Virus record (IMG/VR): IMGVR_UViG_3300008952_000104
Coordinates: 1 to 42,465 of that record
DNA: 42,465 bases
Origin: a virus
Reading direction: 5' to 3' (one strand)
Part shown: positions 4,183-34,640 of the stretch, in pieces
Layout: the number at the start of each line of letters is the position of its first letter
Numbering within the stretch: the first letter of the stretch is position 1
Program-made: the position numbers and the translations under genes
The notes under the pieces: generated by a model
What the model was told of the DNA's origin: nothing
Databases searched by the model: none
The model's input: only the letters and a program-made list of their open reading frames with translations

Positions 4183-4526
4183 CCCCCTTGGATATGGTTA
4201 ACCATGTTGGCCATATAATATATATTGCATGCTATATCAAAATGAATTAAAATAATTATAGAATATAATATTAAAAGGAGCACTATCAATCTATGTACTA
4301 ACTTAAATTCCTTGGCGTACCATAAGAATCCTATCCCTATGGAAACAAGAAGTAATTTTATAAGAAGAAAGGGAACTTCGCCCATCTCCAGCCACATAGC
4401 CATAAATGGATTAAGCTCTCTAGCATACCCGTTGCCAACAAAATACAATGTAGCAAAAGCATCGACAATATTCATCACAGCTAATATAATAAGCATTAAT
4501 GATATTGTTTTTTTGCTAAATTTCAT
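4179..4526 (-). CDS. DUF5658-like small membrane protein
   Basis: A 115-residue protein with three to four TM segments. The first segment carries NIVDAFATLYFVGNGYARELNP, matching the D..aTl..v..g...E.NP pattern of DUF5658-type proteins (unknown function). The next segment has KLLLVSIGIGFLW. The start at 4526 overlaps the stop of the big VWA lipoprotein upstream (ATGA); the upstream extension in the same frame is not needed. Translation is thus coupled to the lipoprotein gene. Confidence 0.6.
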   Translation of the reverse strand: MKFSKKTISLMLIILAVMNIVDAFATLYFVGNGYARELNPFMAMWLEMGEVPFLLIKLLLVSIGIGFLWYAKEFKLVHRLIVLLLILYSIIILIHFDIACNIYYMANMVNHIQGG

Positions 4527-6796
4527 GGTGTGGGCTGTGTTTTTTGTTTCTTTCCGCCGCATGCGGTTTCATCTAGAATTTCTAGAAGATTGTTATACAT
4601 AGTAATGGCTTTCATCGTTAGAGGATATAATTTCCCACCAATTCCAGCTTTTGTTAACGCATCATAATTGTCAGCTGAACCAAAGTCTATCAAAAACTGC
4701 TGTGTAAAAGCATAAATTGCTAACTCATCAGCGACATTGATCATATCAACCAATATTGTTTCAGTAATAGCAGGATCAACATAAGATTGTCCTTGCTCAT
4801 CGGAAAATAAAATAATTACATGTTTTGCGTCCTCGCGCCAGCTAATATCCCATTGCTCTTTCGGCGGATTAGACTCGACTGTTGAACCGCCATAGCCACT
4901 TTGGGAGCCCCACTCTAAGTCAGCTATATTATAGGGCAGCGCTGCTGCACCTACCAAATTTTGAATCGCTAAATATATGGCATCATAATTTTGCTCGTCA
5001 CCACCAGACAATGAAAAGCCAGAATTTTGAAAAGAATTCATAAAGGTGGTAAAATCAACTAAATCCGTTTGTAATACAACTTGTTCACCCCACACCCCTC
5101 CTGAAGTTGCCGAGGCAGTAAATACAAGACCCCATTTTATTACGTCTGAGTCACTATAATACGTAGCAAATTTATTTAAAGCAGTCATGACAGCATTTAT
5201 CTCTTCGAACATGGAACCTGACAAGTCGACAATAAACAAAATGTCTGTGGGTTCTAATTCCTTGTCTTCGTCGATCTTTCCATCACAATTTGTATCAGTA
5301 CCGTTGCACAAATCTTCGGGCTCCGGAGTCACCTCACCTAAACAAAGTTTTTTAACAAACTGGTCATTGTCGTCGTAATTGCCCCACTTTCCTTCGTAAC
5401 ATGTCATTTCACCGGGGACACATATGCCAACCAGCATTGTTTTTGGAGGGCCGCTATAACATCCTGCAAAGAGGTTTTCATCTATTAACTGATTGCAATT
5501 GTCATCATGATTGTTACACTCTTCCGGCTTGATTTCGCCTAAATATTTGTCACATGTTGCGCCGGGAGATAGTGTTTGTGGAATCCAGTGGCAAACAGCC
5601 AAACATTCGGTCAATTGCAATTCCGAACAATTTGGGTCTGTGGGATCAGCACATTCACATGTTTTATAGCCCGCGCCACATACCAATGGACTTTCTTGAC
5701 ACTTAAACAAGGTGCCAATATCTTGCTTGGTACAAAGACAATCCAAGCCTTCATCTGCCTTACCATCGCAGTCGTCATCTAGACCATTACAAATTTCTTC
5801 TTTAGGTTGTTTGGCTGTACAAATCCATTGACCTCCAACACAATATTGTAAATTTTCTTCACAATCCGTGACACATTTTCCTACTAGGTCCTCATCGATT
5901 AGACCGTTGCAATCATTATCAATCCCATCGCAGATTTCATCATCTACTGGGCCGCACTTTCCACAAGCGTTTAGTTGTCCTTCGTCGATTTCACCATCAC
6001 AGTTATCATCTAAACCGTTGCAAACTTCTTCTGGTAGTTTTCCACAACCGCCGCATGCATTTGAAACATCTTCATCAATATCACCATCACAATCATTGTC
6101 GATTTGATCACAAATCTCTTCTTCTGGCTCTGGGCCGACGCATTTCAATACACCTGCTATACAAAAATTCTCGCCCGGGCCACATGCCTTTTCACAATCC
6201 CCCCAGTCTCCCTCATCAACGATGCCATTGCAATTATCATCGATATTATTACAAACTTCTTTAATATCGGAAAAGCCCTCATCGGTTTGGCCGTTACAAT
6301 TATCATCCAAACCATTGCATTCTTCGGGCTTGCAATCAGATACACAGTCCGTATAATAGATGTGGCCCTTATCGCAGGTTTTATCTTTTGTGCCGGGATA
6401 TCCGTCCTTTGTGATACAATCTATGCCAGTTTCTAAAATATGAGTGGTGGGATCGCATTCTAATAGCTCGATGCACTCTCCCTCTAAAACAACAGAGGGG
6501 GGATCCGTACAATGATCAATACAGATTTCTTTTTGCCACACCTCATCAAGCGGAGGGCAAAAATAATAATCACATTTTATGCAATCTTGTTCGTAGGTGT
6601 CTTCTTCAAGGGTTTCTTCTATATCTTCGAAAATATCTTCAGCAATATCTGGTTCTTCGATATCTACGGTTGGATACACTGGTTGCGGCTCTTGCTCTCC
6701 TTTTCCGGCGCCATCATTAGTGCACGATATCATAAAGAACAAGAGAATAAGAAAACCAAATACTAAATACGCTATTCTCTTGAGCGAAGGCGTCAT
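4523..6796 (-). CDS. Lipoprotein with MopE-type repeats and a VWA domain
   Basis: A 757-residue exported protein. The signal ends at the lipobox FMISC (Cys25). An acidic linker follows, then about eight Cys/Asp repeats of the type CNGLDDNCDGEIDE (about residues 155-510), as in MopE-like putative metal-binding motifs common in Myxococcota; each probably binds calcium. From about residue 515 a von Willebrand A domain begins with DILFIVDLSGSMFEE (MIDAS DxSGS). Such architecture suggests surface adhesion or host-surface modification. GAGG nine bases before the ATG supports the start. It is unusual cargo for a phage. Confidence 0.85.
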   Translation of the reverse strand: MTPSLKRIAYLVFGFLILLFFMISCTNDGAGKGEQEPQPVYPTVDIEEPDIAEDIFEDIEETLEEDTYEQDCIKCDYYFCPPLDEVWQKEICIDHCTDPPSVVLEGECIELLECDPTTHILETGIDCITKDGYPGTKDKTCDKGHIYYTDCVSDCKPEECNGLDDNCNGQTDEGFSDIKEVCNNIDDNCNGIVDEGDWGDCEKACGPGENFCIAGVLKCVGPEPEEEICDQIDNDCDGDIDEDVSNACGGCGKLPEEVCNGLDDNCDGEIDEGQLNACGKCGPVDDEICDGIDNDCNGLIDEDLVGKCVTDCEENLQYCVGGQWICTAKQPKEEICNGLDDDCDGKADEGLDCLCTKQDIGTLFKCQESPLVCGAGYKTCECADPTDPNCSELQLTECLAVCHWIPQTLSPGATCDKYLGEIKPEECNNHDDNCNQLIDENLFAGCYSGPPKTMLVGICVPGEMTCYEGKWGNYDDNDQFVKKLCLGEVTPEPEDLCNGTDTNCDGKIDEDKELEPTDILFIVDLSGSMFEEINAVMTALNKFATYYSDSDVIKWGLVFTASATSGGVWGEQVVLQTDLVDFTTFMNSFQNSGFSLSGGDEQNYDAIYLAIQNLVGAAALPYNIADLEWGSQSGYGGSTVESNPPKEQWDISWREDAKHVIILFSDEQGQSYVDPAITETILVDMINVADELAIYAFTQQFLIDFGSADNYDALTKAGIGGKLYPLTMKAITMYNNLLEILDETACGGKKQKTQPTP

Positions 6797-8053: not shown

Positions 8054-8431
8054 TTACCAAGGGTTTGTTGCTTCATCTTCCAATCGACTGTAGTGATCGG
8101 CACGTGCCGTAGATTGAAGCACATCCATCACTTCAGAAAAATCGACATATATCTCGTCTTCGTGAGTTGCGTTATATTCTTCAACAGCGTCGTCTAAAAG
8201 TGCTGCCATGTCTTCATCTTCGAAATTTGAAGATTGCAATATTTCTGCGGCGATTTCTTGAGGAAGCCTATATTGGCCGCCTTGAGTTACAGAAGCTTGT
8301 TGATCATTGGCTTCCCACTCTTGTTGCAGTCTATTTTTAAGTTTTTCAAACTTCCTTGCAAAGCTTTCTGTCAATATTTTTGTATATTCTTCTTTAATAA
8401 GTTGCTTAAGCTTTGCTTTTGTTAGTTTCAT
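8054..8431 (-). CDS. B-tagged acidic protein (copy 1)
   Basis: A 125-residue protein starting MKLTKAKLKQLIKEEY. A helix rich in Lys/Gln follows (ESFARKFEKLKNRLQQEWE), then an acidic body (EDEDMAALLDDAVEEY; DEIYVDFSEVMDVLQ). No domain recognised. It is the most downstream of the five B-signature genes at 8.05-9.96 kb and is separated from the next by one base. Confidence 0.65.
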   Translation of the reverse strand: MKLTKAKLKQLIKEEYTKILTESFARKFEKLKNRLQQEWEANDQQASVTQGGQYRLPQEIAAEILQSSNFEDEDMAALLDDAVEEYNATHEDEIYVDFSEVMDVLQSTARADHYSRLEDEATNPW

Positions 8432-8432
8432 A

Positions 8433-8726
8433 TCACATTGCCCCTCCGAGGTCAGCTAGTGATTTGCCAGAATTTTCTCGTGCAAATGCGTCCAGTTTTG
8501 CTTTAAGTTCGTCCATGGACAAAGTTAGTGGCTGAATATCATCCCACCCGGTATAATCGTCATAAATCCAGTCGCCCACTGCCGCTTCCAACGCTGCACC
8601 AACTTTGTTTTTAAAATCAATTTTAGCACTGTCTTCTCTATCCGCTGTTTCCCGGCTGTCGTAGTCTTCCCAAATTTTCAATTCTTCCTTAATGATTTGT
8701 TTAAGTTTTGATTTGGTTAGTTTCAT
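8433..8726 (-). CDS. B-tagged acidic protein (copy 2)
   Basis: Ninety-seven residues with MKLTKSKLKQIIKEELKIWE at the N-terminus and an acidic alpha-helical body containing two Trp (GDWIYDDYTGWDDI). Only the first 16 residues are shared with its neighbours; the rest is unrelated, as expected for a module put on different cargo. Confidence 0.65.
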   Translation of the reverse strand: MKLTKSKLKQIIKEELKIWEDYDSRETADREDSAKIDFKNKVGAALEAAVGDWIYDDYTGWDDIQPLTLSMDELKAKLDAFARENSGKSLADLGGAM

Positions 8727-8731
8727 TTTAT

Positions 8732-8965
8732 TTACCTTCTATATGGGTCTTCCAGCTTGCCCAGTAAGTTTTCTAAAAAATCATTTAATTCTCTCATTTC
8801 ATCGAGATCACCGCGATCAAGAATCTCTTGTGTCCAACCATCGATTTGAGAATATAAACCATCATACTCTTGCGCAGCTTCTTCTTCTGGGTCTACATCC
8901 CATTCAGATAAGGTTTGCATTTCTTCTTTGATAATCTGTTTAAGTTTTGATTTTGTTATTTTCAT
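8732..8965 (-). CDS. B-tagged acidic protein (copy 3)
   Basis: Seventy-seven residues: MKITKSKLKQIIKEEMQT followed by an acidic helical body (DPEEEAAQEYDGLYSQIDGW; LDEMRELNDFLENLLGKLE). Overlaps the preceding gene by four bases (ATGA). No known domain. Confidence 0.65.
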   Translation of the reverse strand: MKITKSKLKQIIKEEMQTLSEWDVDPEEEAAQEYDGLYSQIDGWTQEILDRGDLDEMRELNDFLENLLGKLEDPYRR

Positions 8966-9201
8966 GTATTTTTTCTCTCTTTGTCATCGTCGTCGCGCTT
9001 TGGATGTTCGTGCCCTTCTTCGATTGTGGGCTCAACATCTTCAGATAAAAGATTGCGAATAATGGTGTTACCAAATTTCATATCATAAACACCAATTTCT
9101 CCCTGTTCATTTAGCGAGTGCCATAATACAGTACCGGTACCATTATCTTTATCGATTCCATATCTTTCCATCAAAGTTGAACTCAACTTACCTTCCTTCA
9201 T
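8962..9201 (-). CDS. Small conserved protein inside the B-tag array
   Basis: Seventy-nine residues without the B tag: MKEGKLSSTLMERYGI, then a beta-rich stretch (GTVLWHSLNEQGEIGVYDM, KFGNTIIRNLL) and an acidic, His-containing tail (EEGHEHPKRDDDDKE). The pattern resembles a small beta-barrel. It starts immediately after the stop of the 37-residue gene (TGAATG), so it is translationally coupled. Confidence 0.55.
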   Translation of the reverse strand: MKEGKLSSTLMERYGIDKDNGTGTVLWHSLNEQGEIGVYDMKFGNTIIRNLLSEDVEPTIEEGHEHPKRDDDDKERKNT

Positions 9202-9315
9202 TCACTTGTGTTCGAGATCATCTAGATCTTTTTCAAGTTCCTTCTTTTTCTCTTTTTCTAGTTTAGTAAGTTCTTCTTTAATTAATTGTTTGAGTAGTAG
9301 TTTGGTTACTTTCAT
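9202..9315 (-). CDS. 37-aa B-tagged mini-protein
   Basis: A 37-residue gene that is almost nothing but the tag: MKVTKLLLKQLIKEELTK, then a Glu/Lys helix ending DDLEHK. Its ATG overlaps the upstream TAA (TAATG) and its TGA abuts the next ATG. Its existence argues that the B module itself, not the attached body, is the functional element, or that it is a scaffold-like peptide. Confidence 0.6.
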   Translation of the reverse strand: MKVTKLLLKQLIKEELTKLEKEKKKELEKDLDDLEHK

Positions 9316-9533
9316 TATTTCCCTTCCCCTTTCCACTCTACGCCAATTTCCTTTTCTAATTCTGTGATTCTTCTGAACAACTCCCCAACGCGTTCAACTA
9401 GCCATTCTGTGCGTGCATCGTCTGGGCCGGCATGTGCCCCGGGAAATGCTTCTTCAATATTTTCAGCACTAGCTGAAATTTTGGATAGTTCCTCTTTGAT
9501 AATTTGTTTAAGTTTTGATTTGGTGAGCTTCAT
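9315..9533 (-). CDS. B-tagged small protein (copy 5)
   Basis: Seventy-two residues starting MKLTKSKLKQIIKEELSKI; the body has an Ala/Gly-rich piece (EEAFPGAHAGPDDAR) and a C-terminal helix (LVERVGELFRRITELEKEI). Overlaps the preceding gene by four bases. Confidence 0.65.
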   Translation of the reverse strand: MKLTKSKLKQIIKEELSKISASAENIEEAFPGAHAGPDDARTEWLVERVGELFRRITELEKEIGVEWKGEGK

Positions 9534-9955
9534 TCGTAATATTCCTCGTCCATACCGGTATCAGACATTCCATAACCAGCGGAATAACTTTCTTGTTCTA
9601 AAAAATCTGCTAATTGACGGAGCCATTCTACACGCGATGCGGTATCATCATTCTCAAATTCGCTACGATCTTCCATTTTGACGTTCGGAAAAAAGTTCTT
9701 TGCTAATTCTCCAATAGCTGATAATCTCTTGCCCCACTCCGGCAGCGCTGGCTTCGCTTCGGGAGTTTCTTTAATCTTATCTTTTTTCAATCTGTTGTTG
9801 CGCCTCTCGCGTCGATCCTTTTCGCGCTTTTCTCTTTCTTCCTTCCTTTTTTTGCGCATATGGTTAATGCCCGGAAGAGTAGATTGAAATATTTCTGGTA
9901 AATTTTCTATTTCTTCCTTAATAATTTGCTTAAGTTTTGATTTGGTTATATTCAT
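9530..9955 (-). CDS. B-tagged protein with basic coiled segment (copy 6)
   Basis: A 141-residue protein: MNITKSKLKQIIKEEIEN, then a strongly basic/acidic helix (residues 33-58, RKEEREKREKDRRERRNN) and an acidic C-terminal third ending MDEEYYE. First gene of the B-tag array. Nothing in the body is recognised. The low-complexity charge pattern is common in phage core or internal proteins. Confidence 0.65.
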   Translation of the reverse strand: MNITKSKLKQIIKEEIENLPEIFQSTLPGINHMRKKRKEEREKREKDRRERRNNRLKKDKIKETPEAKPALPEWGKRLSAIGELAKNFFPNVKMEDRSEFENDDTASRVEWLRQLADFLEQESYSAGYGMSDTGMDEEYYE

Positions 9956-12556: not shown

Positions 12557-12793
12557 TCATCTGATTTCAGAAATAATTTCAATCATCTCCATTTTTATTT
12601 TTTCTGTGTATGGTATCTTTTTCATGTGGTTTGCGCTGTTTGTTGCTAGCCAAATTACGATTATTTCCCTTCTGGAAACAATCTCTAGTACTATTCCATA
12701 CTTATAAACATGCGAGCTGCCTTGTTTCCACCCTTGCGGTCCAATTCTTAAATCCCTATAAATTGTTTGCTTAATATAGTTTCCAATTTTCAT
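12557..12793 (-). CDS. SH3-like small protein
   Basis: Seventy-eight residues beginning MKIGNYIKQTIYRD. The later YKYGIVLEIVSRREIIVIW has the G-I-V...V.W strand pattern of the small SH3-like family that dominates the next 13 kb. Two adjacent ATGs are possible; I take the second, which matches the family start. A perfect 18-base palindrome sits immediately upstream (12801-12818). Confidence 0.55.
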   Translation of the reverse strand: MKIGNYIKQTIYRDLRIGPQGWKQGSSHVYKYGIVLEIVSRREIIVIWLATNSANHMKKIPYTEKIKMEMIEIISEIR

Positions 12794-13615: not shown

Positions 13616-13840
13616 TTATTTTGTAGAATTTGCTTTAAATTTCGCAATTAATATCACCGTACCTACCGAAGACCAATAACATTCGTTTTCATTAAACCAA
13701 TACACTTCGACATCAATTGGCGGATCATCATCTTCATCATAACCATAGGTTAAAATATCCAAAACGATACCAGTATCATTGCTACCGGTGTTACGGACCA
13801 GATCTCCTACTTCAATAACGTTATTTTCATCGCGCGCCAT
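13616..13840 (-). CDS. SH3-like small protein, Asp-rich loop
   Basis: Seventy-four residues; IEVGDLVRNTGSNDTGIVLD, then an acidic loop (YDEDDDPPIDVEVYW) and SSVGTVILIAKFK. The acidic insertion between strands is longer than in most copies and may replace nucleic-acid binding with protein or cation binding. Confidence 0.6.
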   Translation of the reverse strand: MARDENNVIEVGDLVRNTGSNDTGIVLDILTYGYDEDDDPPIDVEVYWFNENECYWSSVGTVILIAKFKANSTK

Positions 13841-13904: not shown

Positions 13905-14135
13905 CTAATATCCCCTAGCTAGCAACTCTAATGTAAAATCTAAACACCAAAATTCCTCGCCGTCGATCCACCAAACTTTAATTTCGTATATACAAGGTTC
14001 CTCAACCAGATCTGGAAAATCTTCAGAACGTTTAATACCCGTGACAATACCAACCTTGTGCGAAAAGTCAAATCGTACTAGATCACCTAGGTTAAACATA
14101 GGCCATGAATCCGGATTATGGCGATCATGGCCCAT
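13905..14135 (-). CDS. SH3-like small protein
   Basis: Seventy-six residues; a 13-residue leader precedes FNLGDLVRFDFSHKVGIVTG, then IYEIKVWWIDGEEFW and LDFTLELLARGY. The leader contains His/Asp (MGHDRHNPDSW) and could be a separate interaction peptide. Confidence 0.6.
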   Translation of the reverse strand: MGHDRHNPDSWPMFNLGDLVRFDFSHKVGIVTGIKRSEDFPDLVEEPCIYEIKVWWIDGEEFWCLDFTLELLARGY

Positions 14136-14586: not shown

Positions 14587-14755
14587 GAGTGTTGGCCTCC
14601 GTAGTATAACTAGACTATGGTACCTTAAAATCTCAATTTTTTTCAGCGGTATTGAAAGCGGGTATAGGCGGGCTTATAACCCATTGATATCACTAGGGAC
14701 ATACATTCCGCCAGTAGAGGGGTAGGGGGGTGGTACCCCCCCATAGGTTGGTTGT
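14587..14755 (-). other. 169-base non-coding stretch with a G/C-tract hairpin
   Basis: No convincing ORF on either strand. Around 14724-14742 the minus strand reads GGGGGG, a short loop, CCCCCC, a strong hairpin without a following T-run, so not a standard terminator. A smaller GGG...CCC hairpin follows near 14670-14690. Could be a structured leader, processing site or small RNA. Confidence 0.35.
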
Positions 14756-14929
14756 TTAGCTTTTTTGCAAACAGGCTTTAACGAAACGCTCTTTGTTAAA
14801 GCGCGGGTTGGTTTTGGCTAGCTCAATAGCAAAGCTCATGGCTAAGCCACGTACTGTACGATCATTGCTTGATCCGTCTTGGTGGGCTCTAAGTACGTCT
14901 GCGATTAGTTGGAAGTCTTTACGAGTCAT
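14756..14929 (-). CDS. Small conserved phage protein (MTRKDFQLIADVL type)
   Basis: Fifty-seven residues: MTRKDFQLIADVLRAHQDG, later LAMSFAIELAKTNPRFNKER and FVKACLQKS. The pattern (R.dFqliAdvl...tNPrFd..RF..aC) is one I associate with small actinophage proteins of unknown function, here in a Gram-negative-type context. GGGAG is nine bases upstream of the ATG. Confidence 0.65.
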   Translation of the reverse strand: MTRKDFQLIADVLRAHQDGSSNDRTVRGLAMSFAIELAKTNPRFNKERFVKACLQKS

Positions 14930-14943
14930 TGTGTTACTCTCCC

Positions 14944-15006
14944 TTATACAAAGAGGCTACTGGTTGTTAGTGATACAGAGATAATCGATAGTGCGATTAC
15001 AATCAT
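14944..15006 (-). CDS. 20-aa hydrophobic micro-protein
   Basis: MIVIALSIISVSLTTSSLFV: almost entirely hydrophobic, able to span a membrane once. GAGGG precedes the ATG by eleven bases, and the stop comes just before the ribosome-binding site of the next gene. Could be a tiny membrane protein or a leader peptide. Confidence 0.4.
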   Translation of the reverse strand: MIVIALSIISVSLTTSSLFV

Positions 15007-15051
15007 TTTATTTATTACCCTCGCGAGTTAATTATGGTTGATGGGGTGGCC

Positions 15052-15198
15052 TTAGCAGCCTTCGGTTTTAAAGGTATCGATTGCCGCTTCGCGCAGCAGG
15101 CTGGTGGATTCGTCATCATAGCATGCAGTACCCCAGCTTTCGAGGTAGGCTACTAGTTCTTGGCGGGAAGCGTTTTTAATGTCTTGAATGCTAAACAA
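15052..15198 (-). CDS. 48-aa protein with TTG start
   Basis: Reads FSIQDIKNASRQELVAYLES, then WGTACYDDESTSLLREAAI and ends TEGC. TTG is the only sensible start, with AGGA six bases upstream. It follows the first of the repeated strong promoters. The C-terminal EGC recurs in the protein at 22497-22715 (AEGC), a hint of relationship. Confidence 0.55.
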   Translation of the reverse strand: MFSIQDIKNASRQELVAYLESWGTACYDDESTSLLREAAIDTFKTEGC

Positions 15199-16228: not shown

Positions 16229-16257
16229 ATTATCTCATATAATGATCAGAATGTCAA
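16229..16257 (-). promoter_or_regulatory. Sigma70-like promoter P3
   Basis: TTGACA (16257-16252), 17 bases, GATAAT (16234-16229), then a leader beginning ATAGAAACAATT. Drives the gene at 16188 and the ATT-start gene. Confidence 0.75.
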
Positions 16258-16266
16258 GCTTTTTTT

Positions 16267-16443
16267 TCATTTATTCCTCCGATTTGTGCTAACTGTGATT
16301 AATTCCCCTTTAAGGTGGCTAGTTCTGCCGGCATTGCATGCATCAAACCATTGCACATCGAACCATGCACCGTGCTTTGGCAATTTTAAAAGTATTCCAA
16401 GCGCGCGCGTCCTTTTGTGTCTGACTAGATCACCTATTTGCAC
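16267..16443 (-). CDS. SH3-like protein, tandem copy 7 (GTG start)
   Basis: Fifty-eight residues: MQIGDLVRHKRTRALGILLK, PKHGAWFDVQWFDACN, RTSHLKGELITVSTNRR. GTG at 16443 is chosen over an upstream ATG because it aligns with the family and has GAGG eight bases before it. Last gene of the seven-copy operon; ten-base overlap with copy 6. Confidence 0.65.
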   Translation of the reverse strand: MQIGDLVRHKRTRALGILLKLPKHGAWFDVQWFDACNAGRTSHLKGELITVSTNRRNK

Positions 16444-16598
16444 CGAACTGCCCTCACTTGATTGACCCTGAACCACAGGCTTTTTCCCTTTATAAAACAA
16501 AGTATACCATTCGCCGCGCGGTCAAATTCAATTATAATTCCGATTTTACCCCAAAGACCTCCAGCATCGCAAACTCTAATTAAATCACCGATTTGCAC
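16434..16598 (-). CDS. SH3-like protein, tandem copy 6 (GTG start)
   Basis: Fifty-four residues: MQIGDLIRVCDAGGLWGKIG, IIIEFDRAANGILCFIKGK, LWFRVNQVRAVRCK. GTG start with GGAGG six bases upstream, inside the last codons of copy 5. Slightly shorter than its neighbours; two Cys. Confidence 0.65.
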   Translation of the reverse strand: MQIGDLIRVCDAGGLWGKIGIIIEFDRAANGILCFIKGKSLWFRVNQVRAVRCK

Positions 16599-16758
16599 TT
16601 AAGACCTCCAGTCGATCACAGTCGACCCACAATTGACAGTCAATCGATTTCACAGACTGCACTAACGCATGTTCGAATTCTTCCATGATATCAAGCACTA
16701 TTCCAATATCTGGTGGTTCGTGAGAATTTTGCTTTTTCACTAAATCACCGACTTGCAT
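16585..16758 (-). CDS. SH3-like protein, tandem copy 5
   Basis: Fifty-seven residues: MQVGDLVKKQNSHEPPDIGI, VLDIMEEFEHALVQSVKS, CQLWVDCDRLEVLSANR. The C-terminal EVLSANR is coded by the ribosome-binding site and start codon of copy 6. Confidence 0.65.
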   Translation of the reverse strand: MQVGDLVKKQNSHEPPDIGIVLDIMEEFEHALVQSVKSIDCQLWVDCDRLEVLSANR

Positions 16759-16933
16759 TGCTCACCACCTCACACACTTCTTGAATGTATTTTTTCTCGA
16801 ATGCTACAACTGCGTTCCAATAAGGACACCAAACTTTGTATGGCTTTTTTGTTCGCAAGTCTCCAATAGCAACAACCAGCCCACAAGAATCTTCAGGAAA
16901 CTCTTTTTCTCTAATTAAATCACCGACTTGCAC
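16745..16933 (-). CDS. SH3-like protein, tandem copy 4 (GTG start)
   Basis: Sixty-two residues: MQVGDLIREKEFPEDSCGLV, GDLRTKKPYKVWCPYWNAV, FEKKYIQEVCEVVSNASR. GTG at 16933 is preferred to an upstream ATG because GGAGG lies six bases before it. Confidence 0.65.
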   Translation of the reverse strand: MQVGDLIREKEFPEDSCGLVVAIGDLRTKKPYKVWCPYWNAVVAFEKKYIQEVCEVVSNASR

Positions 16934-17117
16934 TGATGACCTCCAAGTCTCTCCGCATCCGTCGCACAACGCGACCCTCACTATTACAAAGTTGAACTTG
17001 ATAGTAGTCGTATCGTTGATCGGGTCCAGTCGCTAAAGTCTGGAGAATTAACCCAATCGTACCGACTGGCACACCAACACCGGCTCGCGTTATCTTTACT
17101 AAATTACCGGCTTGCAT
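16920..17117 (-). CDS. SH3-like protein, tandem copy 3
   Basis: Sixty-five residues: MQAGNLVKITRAGVGVPVGT, IGLILQTLATGPDQRYDYYQ, VVRRMRRDLEVISASR. The basic patch RRMRR before the last strand is unique in this set and could contact nucleic acid. Confidence 0.65.
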   Translation of the reverse strand: MQAGNLVKITRAGVGVPVGTIGLILQTLATGPDQRYDYYQVQLCNSEGRVVRRMRRDLEVISASR

Positions 17118-17310
17118 AGTGTTCCCTCATCGCATCATCGTATTCACTCAAAAGAAAAACGTTTGATGGTATAGCTTCGCACATCGTGCCAGCTTTTGGG
17201 CCTCGCAAAAATAGAGCGTGCACGCGGTATCTTTCCATGCGCATAACCTGCATTAATTCTGGGCCGTTCTTGCACCACTTTGCCAACATTACCAAATCAC
17301 CGGCTTGCAC
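17104..17310 (-). CDS. SH3-like protein, tandem copy 2 (GTG start)
   Basis: Sixty-eight residues: MQAGDLVMLAKWCKNGPELM, VMRMERYRVHALFLRGPKAG, then a Cys-containing strand and DDAMREHYASR. GTG start at 17310, GGAGG six bases upstream within the end of copy 1. Confidence 0.65.
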   Translation of the reverse strand: MQAGDLVMLAKWCKNGPELMQVMRMERYRVHALFLRGPKAGTMCEAIPSNVFLLSEYDDAMREHYASR

Positions 17311-17482
17311 TGATTACCTCCAATTGATGTTCACGAAAATCCACATATGTATTTCGGGGCCAATCGCTACCCATAAGCACCTTGTAAAGTACCGTCCATC
17401 GCGTAGAATAATCTGCGTGTGTGATGATGCCCGTAGGCTTTCCATCGACAATTAATACTTTTACCAAGTCACCGACTTGCAT
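17297..17482 (-). CDS. SH3-like protein, tandem copy 1
   Basis: Sixty-one residues: MQVGDLVKVLIVDGKPTGII, HADYSTRWTVLYKVLMG, REHQLEVISASR. First gene of the seven-copy operon, directly behind promoter P4; AAGGATA seven bases before the ATG. Confidence 0.7.
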   Translation of the reverse strand: MQVGDLVKVLIVDGKPTGIITHADYSTRWTVLYKVLMGSDWPRNTYVDFREHQLEVISASR

Positions 17483-17511: not shown

Positions 17512-17540
17512 ATTATCTCAAATATTTGCCTATTTGTCAA
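17512..17540 (-). promoter_or_regulatory. Sigma70-like promoter P4
   Basis: TTGACA (17540-17535), 17 bases, GATAAT (17517-17512), followed by an ATAGAAA leader. Heads the seven-gene SH3-like operon. The -35 overlaps the end of the zinc-ribbon gene upstream. Confidence 0.8.
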
Positions 17541-17935: not shown

Positions 17936-19156
17936 TTAGCCACAATCAATAGCTATCACTCTTTCGTTTGTCTTGAAATACGGACGCGATGCAAAATAGC
18001 GCGTCGTCATCCACATTCGCTGACACTTACTGGCCTTTGGTTTGGGTGCCATCATATCAGTTAGCACAATATGACCATCAAAGCCGCCCTTATTCACATA
18101 ATCAGTGGGGGCATCAAAACAAGTTCCTCCGCTCATTACGCGCTCGGCTTTTCTGGCTTCCCCCTTGCGCCATTCATACACCAAGGACTCATCAACGCGC
18201 GTATCAAATGGTACAACGGTAAACGTTGCATGCTTAGCCAGTTTGGCCAATTCGCTAAAGAAGCTCATAAGCATATCATCCGACACCGAACCAGATTGAT
18301 CAATACTGATTGCAATTTTAGCTTGGCGCTTAACCTTTTTACCGGGGTGCACATATGGAAAACGTTTATTGATTTTTCGCACCGTTGAACGCTTTGCTGC
18401 GCGCTGAGAGGTTTTGACAAAGTATCGCAAAACATTACGCCAATCCACATGCGTAGCCAATCTTGCAAGAATGTCGCGACGGCAGTCAGCGGGTACGCTG
18501 CCCCATCCATTGCCTTTTTGCGCGTCTTCGCTAGCCTTTTTAATATAATCTTTAAGGCGTTCTTTGGCGATCTCACGAGTGGTTGAGTCCACATCACCCC
18601 AGCCCTCATGTGAATCAAATTGTTCAGGCCCAGACTGGCCGCCAGATTCACCCTCGCCCTGCTCTCCGGGTTGGGCCTCTTTGTCGCCTTTTTCTTTCTT
18701 TTTCTGGAATTGCTCGTCTTGCTGTAGTTTTTTAAGATACGCCTCCGCAGAAAGACCAACGGCATAATCTTCGAACGGGCCGGTGCCGGGAATTAGCGCG
18801 CCTTCGGGCAATTCATCGGAAATATGCGAATTGATTGCTAGATCCGTAGCATAGTTCCAAGTCATCGGATCCACATCGTCTTGCTTCCTGCCCGTCACGT
18901 GTTCGAAAATCAAGTGGTAGAACTCGTGCTTAAGCACTCCAAGTCGCTGCCTCTCTTCTAGACTAGCAAAATAATCGGGATTATAAAGCATTTCAAATTG
19001 TGCGGTGTCTGGATTGACGCGCACTCCGGCTGTCGGAATCGCCTTGCTAGCAATTTTATTAATCCTTCGGCTCAATGAAGCAAAGAAGGGCTCCGACATG
19101 AGCAGGCGCGCCGTGTGCATATTGAGATCAAAACCGGTTTTTATTTTATCCATCAT
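17936..19156 (-). CDS. VWA-like metallopeptidase (DUF2201 type)
   Basis: A 406-residue protein. The N-terminal half is a putative metallopeptidase domain with LKHEFYHLIFEH (HExxH at about residues 77-81). A Gln/Glu/Gly-rich linker (residues 150-190) precedes a helical part and a C-terminal VWA-like domain with AISIDQSGSVSDD (MIDAS, about residue 280). This two-part architecture is known from bacterial DUF2201 proteins, which pair with MoxR ATPases. Its partner is the gene just upstream. ATGATG at 19156 is only six bases after the -10 of promoter P5, so the message looks leaderless. Confidence 0.85.
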   Translation of the reverse strand: MMDKIKTGFDLNMHTARLLMSEPFFASLSRRINKIASKAIPTAGVRVNPDTAQFEMLYNPDYFASLEERQRLGVLKHEFYHLIFEHVTGRKQDDVDPMTWNYATDLAINSHISDELPEGALIPGTGPFEDYAVGLSAEAYLKKLQQDEQFQKKKEKGDKEAQPGEQGEGESGGQSGPEQFDSHEGWGDVDSTTREIAKERLKDYIKKASEDAQKGNGWGSVPADCRRDILARLATHVDWRNVLRYFVKTSQRAAKRSTVRKINKRFPYVHPGKKVKRQAKIAISIDQSGSVSDDMLMSFFSELAKLAKHATFTVVPFDTRVDESLVYEWRKGEARKAERVMSGGTCFDAPTDYVNKGGFDGHIVLTDMMAPKPKASKCQRMWMTTRYFASRPYFKTNERVIAIDCG

Positions 19157-19236: not shown

Positions 19237-20292
19237 CTATTCGGTACCAGTTAAAATTTCAACCAGATGCGCGCTGACAGATTTGCCGGAATCGGTGGCA
19301 GCTTGGTGCAGTGCGACGGTATTTTCAACATTTCCGTTACCCATAACTGTCCAAAGTTTCATTGCTACCTCTGACGGCAGAGAAACAAAATAGTTAGCTA
19401 GGTTTTGCACCTGTGTGGCACTCAATTCACCCGCAAACACATCGGAGGCTTCCATCTTTTCAACCAATGCGCTGTGACTGTTGATATCAAAGTCCTTCAC
19501 TAGTGCCATTTCGCCATTGTCTAGCACATCCGCAACTGTAACCTGACGATCATAGTTTTGTACAAAATCGTTGAAAGCTACAGCGGCTTCAAAGCCAACA
19601 AAAGCAGTTGATAAATTAAAGAGAGTCGGGCTAGCTTCCTTCAAAAGACTGCCAGCGGTTAAACACTCGTTAAGCCGATCCCACGAACGCCGCGACGGAT
19701 ATACTTTATTGGGCTCGAATTCGCCGTCATGCTCCAAGTGGCTATGGTTATTGTTGATGAAATCCCAGATAACACCGTCAATATTGTTCTTTGCCCACGT
19801 AAGCCAATCTTCCACGGTGGGTTCAACATCAAACACCGTCCAGCGGTCCAGTTCGGCTGGATCCATTTCGCCAACCTGATACTGATCACCGTGCTCGCCG
19901 CCATTAACAGCGGCAAAAATAAGAGTTTCAGGGTGCAAGTGGTGGCCATTCAGCTTGCGGCTGTCTGTTAATTCAAAGATACCTTGACGGACCTCTGTTG
20001 TAGCACGATCAACCTCATCCAAAAAAAGCACTACCGGCTGGACGCATGCGGTTTTAAACCAGTCTGGCGGGTTCCATGAAGTGACCTCGCCATCAGTCGA
20101 GGGCAAGCCCAGCAAATCGCCTTCGGTCATCTGTGAGGCGCGGCGCTCGACCACTGGCAGATCAGCGCGCTCTGCGTACTGATACACTACCTGCGACTTG
20201 CCAACGCCGTGACGACCGCGCAACAATACTGGTTTTCCAACGTTAGCTACGTATGGTGCAACTTCAACAAATGTTTTAAAATCGATTGCCAT
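19237..20292 (-). CDS. MoxR-type AAA+ ATPase
   Basis: A 351-residue ATPase: Walker A in LRGRHGVGKSQ (about residues 24-34), Walker B in VVLFLDEVDRA (about 88-98), a sensor-1-like FAAVNGG (about 127) and arginine-rich C-terminal helices. MoxR ATPases remodel a partner carrying a VWA domain; the DUF2201-like gene follows after a terminator and its own promoter. In phages the pair could install a cofactor, disassemble a host complex or act on capsid assembly (inference). Start ATG at 20292 has AAGGAAG upstream. Confidence 0.9.
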   Translation of the reverse strand: MAIDFKTFVEVAPYVANVGKPVLLRGRHGVGKSQVVYQYAERADLPVVERRASQMTEGDLLGLPSTDGEVTSWNPPDWFKTACVQPVVLFLDEVDRATTEVRQGIFELTDSRKLNGHHLHPETLIFAAVNGGEHGDQYQVGEMDPAELDRWTVFDVEPTVEDWLTWAKNNIDGVIWDFINNNHSHLEHDGEFEPNKVYPSRRSWDRLNECLTAGSLLKEASPTLFNLSTAFVGFEAAVAFNDFVQNYDRQVTVADVLDNGEMALVKDFDINSHSALVEKMEASDVFAGELSATQVQNLANYFVSLPSEVAMKLWTVMGNGNVENTVALHQAATDSGKSVSAHLVEILTGTE

Positions 20293-21835: not shown

Positions 21836-22009
21836 TTAAACTTTTTTGTACGATCTCACAAGCTCAAGAAATGATTCACGATAATAGCCGGGGTGCTTTT
21901 TGTTTACAAAGTGCACCAAGTAGTCACCGTTATTAGTTTGTTCTGGCGTCTGTAATACCACACCCAATCCATCGACATGTTTGTGGCCAACCATATCACC
22001 GATTTGCAT
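21836..22009 (-). CDS. SH3-like small protein
   Basis: Fifty-seven residues: MQIGDMVGHKHVDGLGVVLQ, NGDYLVHFVNKKHPGYYRE, FLELVRSYKKV. The ATG at 22009 has GGAGG six bases upstream; an upstream extension in frame is rejected. Confidence 0.65.
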   Translation of the reverse strand: MQIGDMVGHKHVDGLGVVLQTPEQTNNGDYLVHFVNKKHPGYYRESFLELVRSYKKV

Positions 22010-22775: not shown

Positions 22776-22953
22776 GAAGTTTTTTTGTTTTTTTCGCTAA
22801 TGATGTACCAATACTTCTTAAGGCTGGCTTTTATTCTGCCGTTTGCTAGCAAAATTCTAACTGCGTTGTCGTGCTCGGCAATGACCATGCCAATTTTATT
22901 TTTGTTCCCTCGCATAAGCTCGGCTCCATTTTAGCCAAATCACCCACTTCCAT
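22772..22953 (-). pseudogene. SH3-like gene with apparent -1 frameshift
   Basis: From ATG at 22953 (GGAG six bases upstream) the frame reads MEVGDLAKMEPSL, a family start, but then loses similarity and stops. In the -1 frame from about 22915 the family body continues: MRGNKNKIGMVIAEHDNAVR, ILLANGRIKASLKKYWYII. Either a frameshifted gene, a programmed slip, or a separate 47-residue gene starting at 22915, which also has GGAG eight bases upstream. Confidence 0.5.
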
Positions 22954-23176
22954 TTGTATCTCCGATATTAGCTGGGCTAATCAATTTTATTTCATTCTCC
23001 GCCACATATACATGGTGTGTGCCCGTAGTACTGCCGCGCGGATCAATAACATAAAGTACGTAATCGTGATATCCACTCCAGCCCGTGCACTTTCTTATTA
23101 CTATTCCCCTCTTTCCCGCGCACCAGCCGACAATGCTTTCAGGTGCTTCAATTTTTACCATATCACCAATATTCAT
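22940..23176 (-). CDS. SH3-like small protein
   Basis: Seventy-eight residues: MNIGDMVKIEAPESIVGWCA, GKRGIVIRKCTGWSGYHDYV, and VAENEIKLISPANIGD. The longer His/Tyr-rich loop is distinctive. It overlaps the next gene by 14 bases. Confidence 0.6.
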   Translation of the reverse strand: MNIGDMVKIEAPESIVGWCAGKRGIVIRKCTGWSGYHDYVLYVIDPRGSTTGTHHVYVAENEIKLISPANIGDTNGSG

Positions 23177-23486: not shown

Positions 23487-23711
23487 TCATTTACAGAGTC
23501 TAGAAAGTACCACCACATCAGAGCGCCGGTTCCATGAGTCAGTGCATGGGACGGAGCATCCCGGCAAACCAATGATGGGGGCGCTCCAGCTTATATGCAC
23601 ATCAATACCCCTCTTGTCTGTTACAATGCCGATGTGGCGCGCGCCATCTTTTGAATGCCAGAGCACCAGATCGCCAACATCAGGCCGACATGTCTTTCTC
23701 GAATTTCTCAC
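23487..23711 (-). CDS. SH3-like small protein (GTG start)
   Basis: Seventy-four residues; an N-terminal RNSRKTCRPD leader, then VGDLVLWHSKDGARHIGIVT, DVHISWSAPIIGLPGC, SDVVVLSRLCK. GTG start with AGGATAA upstream. Confidence 0.6.
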   Translation of the reverse strand: MRNSRKTCRPDVGDLVLWHSKDGARHIGIVTDKRGIDVHISWSAPIIGLPGCSVPCTDSWNRRSDVVVLSRLCK

Positions 23712-23715
23712 TATA

Positions 23716-23892
23716 TTATTTATCCTGCTTGTCTTTGATCCGAGATAGAACTGAAGTAGTTAATTCGTTGACTTGTCCATTGACAAATAAAACCTTGGCA
23801 ATTTGATAGGGAAAAATAACAGTCGGTTCGCTAATTTCAACTATAACTCCAACCCCATTTATTTCATGACTCACCAAGTCGCCAACCTTCAC
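23716..23892 (-). CDS. SH3-like small protein (GTG start)
   Basis: Fifty-eight residues: MKVGDLVSHEINGVGVIVEI, VIFPYQIAKVLFVNGQVNE, then a helical tail (LSRIKDKQDK). Starts one base inside the stop of the Cys-tail gene (TAGTG). Confidence 0.6.
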   Translation of the reverse strand: MKVGDLVSHEINGVGVIVEISEPTVIFPYQIAKVLFVNGQVNELTTSVLSRIKDKQDK

Positions 23893-24131: not shown

Positions 24132-24160
24132 ATTATATCAATTGGTATCGCAATTGTCAA
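24132..24160 (-). promoter_or_regulatory. Sigma70-like promoter P11 (consensus), leaderless
   Basis: TTGACA (24160-24155), 17 bases, TATAAT (24137-24132); ATG at 24125 immediately after. It lies inside the 3' end of the upstream SH3-like gene. Confidence 0.75.
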
Positions 24161-24344
24161 GCTTTTCTGAAACTATTACCAACTCTTCCATCGGAAACCA
24201 TTGCGGCGTTCTGCTTTGGTTTCCGGATAGCCATTTGATTTGATAGTATGTTTTTCCTGATTGTGAATCATTGGCGGCTAGCACCACCCCGCAGCCATTG
24301 TTGGCATCAAAGAATTTGTGCCTTACTAAATTACCGACCTTCAT
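24138..24344 (-). CDS. SH3-like small protein
   Basis: Sixty-eight residues: MKVGNLVRHKFFDANNGCGV, YYQIKWLSGNQSRTPQWF, MEELVIVSEKLDN. ATG at 24344 with GGAGG six bases upstream; longer readings rejected. Confidence 0.65.
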   Translation of the reverse strand: MKVGNLVRHKFFDANNGCGVVLAANDSQSGKTYYQIKWLSGNQSRTPQWFPMEELVIVSEKLDNCDTN

Positions 24345-24504
24345 TGACAACCTCCAGCGTACGCCGCTGAAACCACATGGTATAGCTAGCGCACTGAAGC
24401 AGCGCCTGAACGGGGCCATGGGTGCGACTGTCGATTTCAGTCACAATTCCATAATGAGCACTGCCGTCCCTCCCAATATATTTAATTAAATCACCGACTT
24501 GCAC
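24331..24504 (-). CDS. SH3-like small protein (GTG start)
   Basis: Fifty-seven residues: MQVGDLIKYIGRDGSAHYGI, VTEIDSRTHGPVQALLQC, RRTLEVVNEGR. GTG directly after the upstream TAA. The final EVVNEGR is written by the next gene's ribosome-binding site and start. Confidence 0.65.
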   Translation of the reverse strand: MQVGDLIKYIGRDGSAHYGIVTEIDSRTHGPVQALLQCASYTMWFQRRTLEVVNEGR

Positions 24505-25293: not shown

Positions 25294-25464
25294 TTACCGC
25301 TTTTCTTTTAAAGATATATCATCGATATGCTCTAGCAATATTATATTTCCATATTGGACTTTTAGCCATTTTCTTCCAACAACTTTTACGACCTTGCCAT
25401 GGCCGTTCTCTAATAGCTTAAGTTTTATTAAGTCACCTACTTTAATCTTTTTTTCACAATCCAT
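25294..25464 (-). CDS. SH3-like small protein
   Basis: Fifty-six residues: MDCEKKIKVGDLIKLKLLEN, GHGKVVKVVGRKWLKVQYG, IILLEHIDDISLKEKR. GKVVKVVGRKWLKV is reminiscent of KOW-type RNA-binding motifs. ATG at 25464 overlaps the upstream gene by eleven bases; AAGG precedes it. Confidence 0.6.
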   Translation of the reverse strand: MDCEKKIKVGDLIKLKLLENGHGKVVKVVGRKWLKVQYGNIILLEHIDDISLKEKR

Positions 25465-25669
25465 ATACCTTCTCAATTCGCCACGCGGCTACGTCCACAT
25501 ATGGCCCAAGAAGCCCTTTCGAAGAGAAGGCAACACGGACCATTATTTTTTCTTTCATGGGATTCACTATTGCAGATGTATCGATAACCGTACCAACCAT
25601 GTCTGCATATTTCCTGAAAGAAATATTGTCTTCTCTATTAACAAACCTTACTTTGTCACCTATTTTCAT
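25454..25669 (-). CDS. SH3-like small protein
   Basis: Seventy-one residues: MKIGDKVRFVNREDNISFRK, MVGTVIDTSAIVNPMKEKI, VAAWRIEKVYGL. ATG at 25669 is preferred to a TTG four codons earlier. Confidence 0.6.
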   Translation of the reverse strand: MKIGDKVRFVNREDNISFRKYADMVGTVIDTSAIVNPMKEKIMVRVAFSSKGLLGPYVDVAAWRIEKVYGL

Positions 25670-25702: not shown

Positions 25703-25731
25703 ATCATAGCATACCTTTGATTCTAGGTCAA
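25703..25731 (-). promoter_or_regulatory. Sigma70-like promoter P13
   Basis: TTGACC (25731-25726), 17 bases, TATGAT (25708-25703). A slightly divergent member of the series, for the genes at 25669 and 25464; its -35 overlaps the 3' end of the upstream gene. Confidence 0.6.
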
Positions 25732-25935
25732 GCATATTTTTTTATTATTTTTTGCAGAACTTACCAAACACAAATCATCGTCATGTACCCACGTGCGAGC
25801 GCCATCGCCATTTTTTAACCATAAAACCTCATGGGGTTCGGCTAGCCAATCACACGAATGAACTACAATTCCAATTCGAGGCTCTTCGTTAAACAGGCGC
25901 CTTTGCTTGTATTGAACCAAATCACCAATTTTCAT
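25723..25935 (-). CDS. SH3-like small protein
   Basis: Seventy residues: MKIGDLVQYKQRRLFNEEPR, IGIVVHSCDWLAEPHEVLW, WVHDDDLCLVSSAKNNK. Starts inside the stop of the upstream gene (ATGA). Confidence 0.6.
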   Translation of the reverse strand: MKIGDLVQYKQRRLFNEEPRIGIVVHSCDWLAEPHEVLWLKNGDGARTWVHDDDLCLVSSAKNNKKICLT

Positions 25936-33071: not shown

Positions 33072-34640
33072 TTACTTTTCTATTATACAGTAGTCGGTTG
33101 TTATTAAAGTTGCCGCGGCCGATGATGCATTCTGAAGAGCATTGCGAGTCACCTTTACGGGATCAATAATTCCATCCACATACATATCAGTCAGTTCATT
33201 TTTTATAAAGTTCCAGCCCTCGTCATTATCTGAATTTATTACTTCGTTAACGATCAGATCTGGGGACTCGCCGGCGTTGATAGCCATCTGTCTCAACGGC
33301 TTTTTGATTGCCTCTTTTACCACCTCGACCCCAAACATTTGATCTTGATTATCGGTGTCCACTTTAAGGTCATTGTGTATTTTAATCAAGGCACTGCCAC
33401 CGCCCGTTACTATCCCCTCTTCTTGCGCGGCTTTAACGGCTGCCAGAGAATCTTCAATTCTGTGTTTCTTTTCAATCATCTCGACCTCTGTCGGTGCCCC
33501 AACTCTAATTATTGCAATGCCGCTAGCCAGACGCGTAATTCTTTCCTGAATTTTTTCACTCTCGTAGAGTGAGTCGGTTTGCGGCACTAGTGCCTTGAGT
33601 GTTTCAATTCTTTTTTCTATATCCTCTTGTTCTCCATTGCCAGCAACAATTGTTGTAAGGTTGTTTAGAATTTCTATGGATTTCGCTGTGCCAAAATCAT
33701 TTAAAGTAATTTCAGCTAGGCTTAAGCCTGCTTCCCTAGATACAAACGTGGCGCCGGTGGATATACAAAGATCCTTAAGTATGTTTCTTCTTTCCTCTCC
33801 GTACTGTGGTGCTTTGACTGCGGCTACCTTAAGGGTGCCGCGCATTGCGTTCATGATAAGTGCAGCCAACGCCTGACCTTCTACATTTTCTGCCACGACG
33901 ACGAAGGGCCGGCCTTCCCTAGCAGCAATTTCTAGAGCAGGCATCAATTCATCAACTGTTTCTATAGCGGCGTCTGTGACCAACAGAAGCGGTTCGTTGT
34001 ATTTTACTGCGCCAGTTCTTTCATCGGTAATAAAGGTTGGCGATAAATACCCAGACTGAAACCGGAAGCCTTCGACCACATCTAGTGTCGTATCAACTGA
34101 TCGGGCTTCTTCAATGGTTATCGCGCCATCTTTACCGATTAAATCGACAGCAGACGCGATAAGCTTGCCAATCTTTTCATCGCCATTGGCGGATATTTTT
34201 GCAACATGCTCAATGTCCTCTTTTGATTTAATCGGCCTAGCCAACTGACTAAGTTTTTCCAAAATGATGTCCGTTGCTTTGCTGATCCCCCTCTTCAGTT
34301 CGATGGGAGAAGAGCCCGCGGCTAAATATTTTTGTGATTCCTTGAGGATGGCCGCGGCCAAAACAGTTGATGTTGTTGTGCCGTCCCCGGCATTAACATT
34401 TGTTTGCAGTGCCGCTTGCTTAAGCGTCTGCGCTCCAACGTTCTCAAATGGATCCTCAAGTTCAACAAATTTTGCCACGGTAACCCCGTCTTTTGTAATT
34501 ATTGGATTTCCATTTTTAGGGTGCAATATTACATTTCTTCCCTTTGGTCCAAGCGTTGACGCAACGTTGTCCGCCAATATTGTTGCACCTTTTAAAATCT
34601 TTTGCCTTAACTCTAATCCGGAATTAAATTCTTTTGACAA
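33072..34640 (-). CDS. groL: GroEL-like chaperonin
   Basis: A 522-residue group I chaperonin: GPKGRNVILHPKNGNPIITK, DGVTVAKFVELEDPFENVG, and NAGDGTTTSTVLA with the ATPase Asp; RIEDSLAAVKAAQEEGIVT carries the second catalytic Asp. It lacks the usual Gly-Met C-terminal tail (ends TDYCIIEK) and no groES lies within view. Start TTG at 34640, GGAG eight bases upstream. Phage GroELs can fold large phage proteins without GroES; whether this one does is unknown. Confidence 0.95.
   Translation of the reverse strand: MSKEFNSGLELRQKILKGATILADNVASTLGPKGRNVILHPKNGNPIITKDGVTVAKFVELEDPFENVGAQTLKQAALQTNVNAGDGTTTSTVLAAAILKESQKYLAAGSSPIELKRGISKATDIILEKLSQLARPIKSKEDIEHVAKISANGDEKIGKLIASAVDLIGKDGAITIEEARSVDTTLDVVEGFRFQSGYLSPTFITDERTGAVKYNEPLLLVTDAAIETVDELMPALEIAAREGRPFVVVAENVEGQALAALIMNAMRGTLKVAAVKAPQYGEERRNILKDLCISTGATFVSREAGLSLAEITLNDFGTAKSIEILNNLTTIVAGNGEQEDIEKRIETLKALVPQTDSLYESEKIQERITRLASGIAIIRVGAPTEVEMIEKKHRIEDSLAAVKAAQEEGIVTGGGSALIKIHNDLKVDTDNQDQMFGVEVVKEAIKKPLRQMAINAGESPDLIVNEVINSDNDEGWNFIKNELTDMYVDGIIDPVKVTRNALQNASSAAATLITTDYCIIEK

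Follow-up and report, generated by a model that had tools for sequence, protein, structure and literature searches.

How does a phage come to carry seven very small genes, lying head to tail behind a single promoter and each running into the next by almost always the same number of nucleotides? We addressed this question for the IMG/VR record IMGVR_UViG_3300008952_000104, using the term window for the whole stretch of 42,465 nt that was analysed. The array occupies positions 17482-16267 on the minus strand and consists of seven overlapping open reading frames of 54-68 codons each, here referred to as g1 to g7. The genes, the joints between them and the elements on either side are as follows:

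17297..17482 (-): g1, SH3-like cassette, ATG start, 61 aa, profile match
17104..17310 (-): g2, has the joint common to the array, body without SH3-like support, GTG start, 68 aa
16920..17117 (-): g3, SH3-like cassette, ATG start, 65 aa, profile match
16745..16933 (-): g4, SH3-like cassette, GTG start, 62 aa, profile match
16585..16758 (-): g5, SH3-like cassette, ATG start, 57 aa, profile match
16434..16598 (-): g6, SH3-like cassette, GTG start, 54 aa, profile match
16267..16443 (-): g7, last SH3-like cassette, without SASR tail, GTG start, 58 aa, AlphaFold pLDDT 88
17297..17310 (-): joint g1/g2, 14 nt, GTGCAAGCCGGTGA, start of g2 and SASR-stop of g1
17104..17117 (-): joint g2/g3, 14 nt
16920..16933 (-): joint g3/g4, 14 nt
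16745..16758 (-): joint g4/g5, 14 nt
16585..16598 (-): joint g5/g6, 14 nt
16434..16443 (-): joint g6/g7, 10 nt
17512..17540 (-): near-consensus sigma-70 promoter before the array, TTGACA-17-GATAAT with extended -10 (TG), 11 of 12 matches
16229..16257 (-): next promoter, TTGACA-17-GATAAT, directly behind the array, near-identical to the array promoter
19237..20292 (-): MoxR-like AAA ATPase, conserved neighbour, used as query for relatives and as measure of divergence
17936..19156 (-): DUF2201 metallopeptidase/VWA-like protein, conserved neighbour

The initial annotation had described seven tiny genes in one operon behind one strong promoter, and this layout is confirmed: the TTGACA-17-GATAAT promoter runs from 17540 to 17512, and from g1 to g7 the overlaps are 14, 14, 14, 14, 14 and 10 nt. 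Four of the seven genes (g2, g4, g6 and g7) start with GTG, and M, Q, G4 and L6 are invariant in all seven proteins. At the g1/g2 joint, a ribosome site, GGAGGT, is located just upstream, within the LEV codons of g1. Two irregularities can be traced to single codons. The g6/g7 overlap is 10 nt because the third codon, for Ile, is ATA, which creates an earlier TAG in another frame, and g2 ends with TAA because the start of g3 carries GGTAA instead of GGTGA. No terminator was found between the end of the array and the promoter at 16229..16257. Eleven near-identical promoters of the type TTGACA-17-[TG]ATAAT (11-12 of 12 matches), nearly all with an extended -10, punctuate the small-gene region on the minus strand:

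15552, 16257, 17540, 19191, 20356, 21138, 21818, 22178, 22775, 24160, 25142 (-): promoter positions in the small-gene region

Are the seven proteins versions of one fold, as the initial annotation had supposed? With a family profile from which all window genes and their close relatives had been left out, g1 and g3 to g7 were matched with E values from 5e-11 to 6e-6, and g2 only weakly (E 0.09). Since the start motif is common to all copies, the common start and tail were removed and each gene was compared with 200 shuffles of itself. Under these conditions, g3 to g7 scored above all 200 of their own shuffles; for g1, a score of 11.8 bits compares with 4.5 at the 95th percentile of its shuffles and with 12.8, only just higher, for the best shuffle, and g2 failed this comparison. 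Judged by these profile scores, six of the seven genes, all but g2, have family support that goes beyond the common start motif. A model predicted by AlphaFold for g7 from a 123-sequence alignment (pLDDT 88.4, pTM 0.69) has five strands and a short HHH turn before the last strand, a confidently predicted five-stranded SH3-like barrel; an alignment of just the seven copies gave a poor model (pLDDT 52). The proposed common SH3-like fold thus stands for g7 by its model and for g1 and g3 to g6 by the profile, and is without support for g2.

Searching the PDB with the g7 model using Foldseek returned SH3-like barrels at TM scores of about 0.7-0.77, among them HspQ, the KOW domains of Spt5 and NusG, PWWP, Tudor and other SH3-like barrels, with HspQ (5ycq, TM 0.77, E 8e-3) as best match. 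T-even Gp30.5 and a DUF2158 protein are its viral structural neighbours. The PDB profile matches were weak and comprised the KOW domains of Spt5, uL24 and NusG; HspQ was absent from them, and the likeness to HspQ is structural only. Further weak profile matches were to the RID of CarD/TRCF and the Tudor domain of PcrA/UvrD. The seven single sequences gave no Pfam match at E values up to 10 except a meaningless one, and nothing significant in PHROGs. DUF2158 (PF09926, YodC-like), which includes a protein of Serratia phage X20, also comprises small SH3-like proteins from phages and bacteria that are of comparable length, but no window gene has a significant match to that Pfam profile, and only one of 123 family members matches it weakly (E 0.002). 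We know of no report of arrays or of the joint for DUF2158. PMC11373665 contains a DUF2158-like phage protein and is uninformative for the array genes.

The profile search also showed that the window holds at least 18 family members rather than seven, including a second mini-array:

24331..24504 (-): second mini-array, gene 1, SH3-like, 57 aa, found with the family profile
24138..24344 (-): second mini-array, gene 2, SH3-like, 68 aa, 14-nt overlap with gene 1, found with the family profile
21836..22009 (-): solo SH3-like paralogue, 57 aa, E 1.1e-5
22940..23176 (-): solo SH3-like paralogue, 78 aa, E 8.7e-4
23487..23711 (-): SH3-like paralogue, 74 aa, E 7.1e-4
23716..23892 (-): SH3-like paralogue, 58 aa, E 1.1e-4
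25294..25464 (-): SH3-like paralogue, 56 aa, E 2.7e-3
25454..25669 (-): SH3-like paralogue, 71 aa, E 2.1e-3
25723..25935 (-): SH3-like paralogue, 70 aa, E 1.4e-8
12557..12793 (-): SH3-like paralogue, 78 aa, E 2.7e-3
13616..13840 (-): SH3-like paralogue, 74 aa, E 4.1e-5
13905..14099 (-): SH3-like paralogue, 64 aa, E 2.4e-4

A further SH3-like gene (22953-22770, minus strand) looks frameshifted. It starts with MEVGDLAKM and stops after 35 codons, and the adjoining frame continues as an SH3-like body, so that it represents either a pseudogene or a sequencing error.

Relatives were fetched with the MoxR-like ATPase, which yielded more than 80 contigs, many of them 180-205 kb in length; as they were chosen through MoxR, they represent one phage group. 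The major capsid protein gp23 (PF07068) and RecA/UvsX were each found in all 16 long relatives tested, which identifies the phage as a T4-like myophage. The window is a fragment of this marine phage, the genome of which has approximately 185 kb. Among isolated phages, megablast gave no match and a search with the SH3 genes no useful match, and tblastn with MoxR returned 361 records, the best below 32% identity. The relatives contain 264 runs of small genes with the GD-L-V start, the longest with 16 genes, and arrays of at least three genes are present in 47 of 82 contigs; at an E value of 0.01, between 1 and 31 family members were detected per phage record. Since an overlap of exactly 14 nt occurs at 396 junctions between neighbouring genes from more than 80 related loci, the layout of the array is far beyond chance, and, as all contigs are metagenomic, some of these junctions could be assembly artefacts. 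A subgroup of three relatives (L064, L072 and L076) has overlaps of 10 nt (and 4 nt) throughout its arrays, in place of 14. Among 84,980 cellular genomes, a strict joint pattern matched no more than six stretches, and many viral contigs were among the matches listed. Two contigs with the joint (L211 and L214) are binned in the Deltaproteobacteria MAG SP124, which is a weak hint to Deltaproteobacteria as the host group, the binning of phage contigs being unreliable.

What do the junctions have in common? Across 348 distinct junctions, the joint has a consensus of about 33 nt, TTGGAGGTNATCA[GA]TGMAAGTCGGTGATTTRGT. Translated in the upstream frame, it gives LEVI[SN][EA]SR-stop and forms the last strand, the tail and the TGA stop of the upstream protein; in the downstream frame, the ribosome site GGAGGT is followed by M[KQ]VGDLV, the first residues of the next protein. 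The Gly-Asp codons with which the next gene begins its GD-L-V motif, GGT GAT, contain the upstream TGA stop. Of 348 internal genes, 266 have the C-terminal tail, compared with only 8 of 123 last genes, which argues that it is a by-product of the junction and not a feature of the protein. LEVxSASR as a C-terminal protein motif was consequently rejected, as most of it results from reading the next gene's ribosome site and start in another frame. The joint is also found on cassettes that are not SH3-like, inside or beside arrays (L031 6049-6369 and L028 7475), the products of which are hydrophobic and probably membrane proteins of 106 and 131 aa, respectively; this hints that the joint is able to carry other cargo.

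Whole cassettes differ between phages, and they do so at the joints. The g1 gene and its counterpart in L052 (15672-15857) share approximately 97% DNA identity between the joints in phages whose MoxR proteins are 68% identical. This identity extends from the start codon to GGTGATTTGGT of the next gene and is at background level on both sides. The g4 protein has 71-74% amino acid identity to genes in two other relatives (L004 and L037). In averages over 34 and over 56 pairs whose neighbours differ, identity drops at the joint from about 75-95% to about 27% on both sides. Among 324 cross-phage pairs with at least 60% identity, there are 50 in which the two neighbours both differ and 9 in which they both agree. 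We found 12 comparisons of the type A-B versus A-X-B and three replacements, all of which involve whole cassettes, and the number of independent events is smaller than these counts because some comparisons share phages. For instance, L044 has one gene more than L045, a clean indel with breakpoints in the direct repeat TGAARGTCGGTGATTTRGT. At another site, two phages have no cassette (L009 and L014), one has cassette 357 (L011) and one cassette 375 (L015), and their MoxR proteins are 96-100% identical. From these comparisons of sequence we propose, with high confidence, that the arrays were assembled and re-sorted from a common pool of cassettes. The same confidence applies to the wider statement that large T4-like marine phages have a mobile cassette system, the products of which have about 60 residues and form nearly always one SH3-like barrel.

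How might such exchanges take place? As the direct repeats at all joints are alike, homologous recombination could delete, insert or swap whole cassettes. Every junction is alike because every cassette starts with the same GD-L-V sequence, and since the ribosome site, the start and the stop all lie within the joint, any product of an exchange stays expressible. In the 16 relatives searched, no tyrosine integrase (PF00589; controls were positive in 14), no serine recombinase and no RecT was found, and we infer that the exchanges would be made by the RecA/UvsX pathway of the phage itself. Joints of unrelated cassettes are identical at about 25 of 33 positions, and their longest stretch without a mismatch has a median of 11 nt. 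Such a stretch is short for RecA-type recombination and below the roughly 30 bp quoted as a minimum for Red-beta recombination (PMC3945230), and another pathway may therefore act. The exchange events may be rare, may occur between better-matched pairs, or may proceed by annealing, template switching or another short-homology route.

Is the joint itself under selection as a point of recombination? Coding and translation needs alone explain part of its conservation, and one might argue that it is kept for translation only, that whole-gene boundaries are simply the survivors of selection and that the joint is not recombinogenic. In line with this, GGAGGT and the start codon are among the joint positions, all gene exchange in phages is filtered for intact genes, and the exact identity of unrelated joints is at most about 11 nt. 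However, the boundaries are uniform and fall in the same stretch of approximately 20 nt, the clean indels lie inside the direct repeat itself, and the synonymous sites GTC and GGT are still biased in first and solo genes, in which no open reading frame overlaps the start: GGT is used there in 62% compared to 29% in gene bodies, and GTC in 52% compared to 21%. Such over-use is expected if cassettes shift between first and internal positions, and might instead reflect a preference in translation initiation. We consider the translation-only reading of the joint unlikely. That the joint is selected as a recombination point, which would make the array a self-contained, integrase-free cassette system that re-sorts host-targeting binders, is a tentative proposal that we would not yet bet on. 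If true, a phage would have an open-ended repertoire of one fold in which every junction is translatable by construction.

The proteins themselves seem to be made and to matter, as indicated by purifying selection: the median dN/dS is 0.19 and none of 273 pairs exceeds 1. The consensus promoters are of the host type, which suggests that the host RNA polymerase transcribes the genes early. Against this reading, a strict pattern detected promoter-like sites before only 12 of 118 array-first genes (about 10%) and none of 335 internal genes, compared to 2.4% of random stretches. The isoelectric points of the family proteins range from about 4 to 11, which makes a common nucleic-acid target or surface unlikely. 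Based on purifying selection, mixed charge and consensus promoters, we propose that the cassettes provide a set of small binding modules, made early and directed at varied targets in the host or in rival elements, for takeover or counter-defence, a role to which we give roughly an even chance. Through the turnover of such modules, a phage lineage could alter its repertoire. The initial annotation had suggested a family of inhibitors, adaptors or RNA-binders akin to anti-host peptide arsenals, and a host-directed arsenal remains plausible, as mixed charge and turnover fit varied targets. As a whole, a shuffled cassette array that encodes a host-directed repertoire is probably the best explanation of the locus.

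Alternatively, the SH3-like proteins could be nucleic-acid, RNA-polymerase or ribosome binders of the KOW/Tudor type that remodel host transcription or translation. The weak profile matches to Spt5, uL24 and NusG KOW, CarD/TRCF RID and PcrA/UvrD Tudor point in this direction, as do the Spt5 and NusG KOW domains among the top Foldseek ranks. However, these matches are generic to SH3-like barrels, and the wide range of pI values argues against such a role; we therefore regard this alternative as rather improbable, and a uniform nucleic-acid-binding role was judged unlikely on the same grounds.

With respect to the origin of the array, the initial annotation had invoked repeated duplication of one small fold, with the copies possibly being recent. 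Ordinary tandem duplication in place, in which each copy kept the overlap and no exchange took place between phages, would account for the start motif and overlap common to all copies, and a few near-identical copies do exist within a phage: in L050, two cassettes (14614-14832 and 14976-15194) are 99% identical with a different one between them, a recent non-adjacent copy. Yet g1 is only 26-40% identical to the other copies, the best match lies in the own array for only 9 of 333 genes from 82 arrays (five of the nine adjacent), and a single adjacent pair across all arrays is at least 60% identical. For the best match, the median bit score is 21.6 inside the array and 68.2 in another phage; the pool of other phages is larger and hence favoured, but the gap is too wide for pool size alone. 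Furthermore, cassettes with 80-95% identity and different neighbours occur in phages whose MoxR proteins are 63-71% identical. Tandem duplication as the origin of the array was thus rejected as very unlikely, and duplication may still be the ancient origin of the family.

Finally, the proposal that these proteins are HspQ-like adaptors redirecting the host Lon or a Clp-type protease is highly improbable and was judged unsupported, because the best PDB match (5ycq) has an E value at the level of many unrelated SH3-like barrels and there is no sequence match to HspQ. HspQ, the KOW domains of NusG and Spt5, Tudor and PWWP share the five-stranded SH3-like barrel with g7, but as sequence similarity is not significant, their functions are not transferable.

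The array resembles other modular systems in part. Modular shuffling of small early genes at PeSLs has been described in T4-type phages (Arbiol 2010, Comeau 2014, as cited in PMC4503421). The small early genes of variable regions in T4-like phages are reported to recombine at short conserved sequences and, as in the window, the expression signals travel with the joint. PeSLs, as described there, consist of a promoter and a stem-loop between genes, whereas the joint of the window lies inside overlapping genes, where it holds the ribosome site together with a start and a stop, and the cargo is almost entirely of one fold. No promoter-like site was found upstream of the 335 internal genes; promoters repeat between operons. 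Integrons share with the window arrays the succession of promoterless single-gene cassettes that are gained or lost singly behind one promoter. In contrast to integrons, no integrase was found in the 16 relatives searched, and the joint is a coding overlap, analysed here as a linear consensus. Short conserved boundary sequences at gene borders also serve as exchange points in lambdoid phages, for example in the ninR genes. Likened by this general description, the two systems have in common exchange points at gene borders, but the lambdoid genes are not known to form arrays of one fold. We found no description of arrays of small SH3-like phage genes in the literature, with journal coverage being incomplete, and as far as it was searched, the joint inside overlapping genes, the long arrays of one fold and the single-cassette events at base level are new.

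Tiny early phage genes of unknown function are abundant and their turnover is poorly known; here it can be read at base level, with gain, loss and replacement of single genes between near-identical phages. The rule is simple, as GGTGA within the Gly-Asp codons closes the upstream gene and the overlap architecture thus makes the genes interchangeable. In addition, the family offers a large catalogue of natural variation, with hundreds of sequences for a single 60-residue barrel that is under purifying selection; they could be used in screens for phage-host targets.

Several other genes of the window deserve mention. An N-terminal tag of the type M..L.ENWRKFLNE is common to at least eight proteins that are not otherwise related, and its carriers include a Nudix-like protein, a nucleotidyltransferase, a deoxyribonucleotidase and a kinase-like protein:

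328, 907, 3652, 7221, 8049, 11946, 12544, 27118 (-): starts of genes with the M..L.ENWRKFLNE tag

The internal proteins of T4 bear a capsid-targeting leader, and the tag resembles its logic. A second family with repeated starts is located at 8054-9955 (minus strand), where five or six adjoining small genes have the common N-terminus MKLTKSKLKQIIKEE and differing bodies. The minus-strand gene at 4523-6796 codes for a putative lipoprotein of 757 aa with repeated MopE-type metal-binding motifs (PF11617, E 2e-25), which is unusual in a phage, and a gene recognised by eye as coding for a GroEL-like chaperonin (33072-34640, minus strand) adjoins one for a 556-aa protein without a family.
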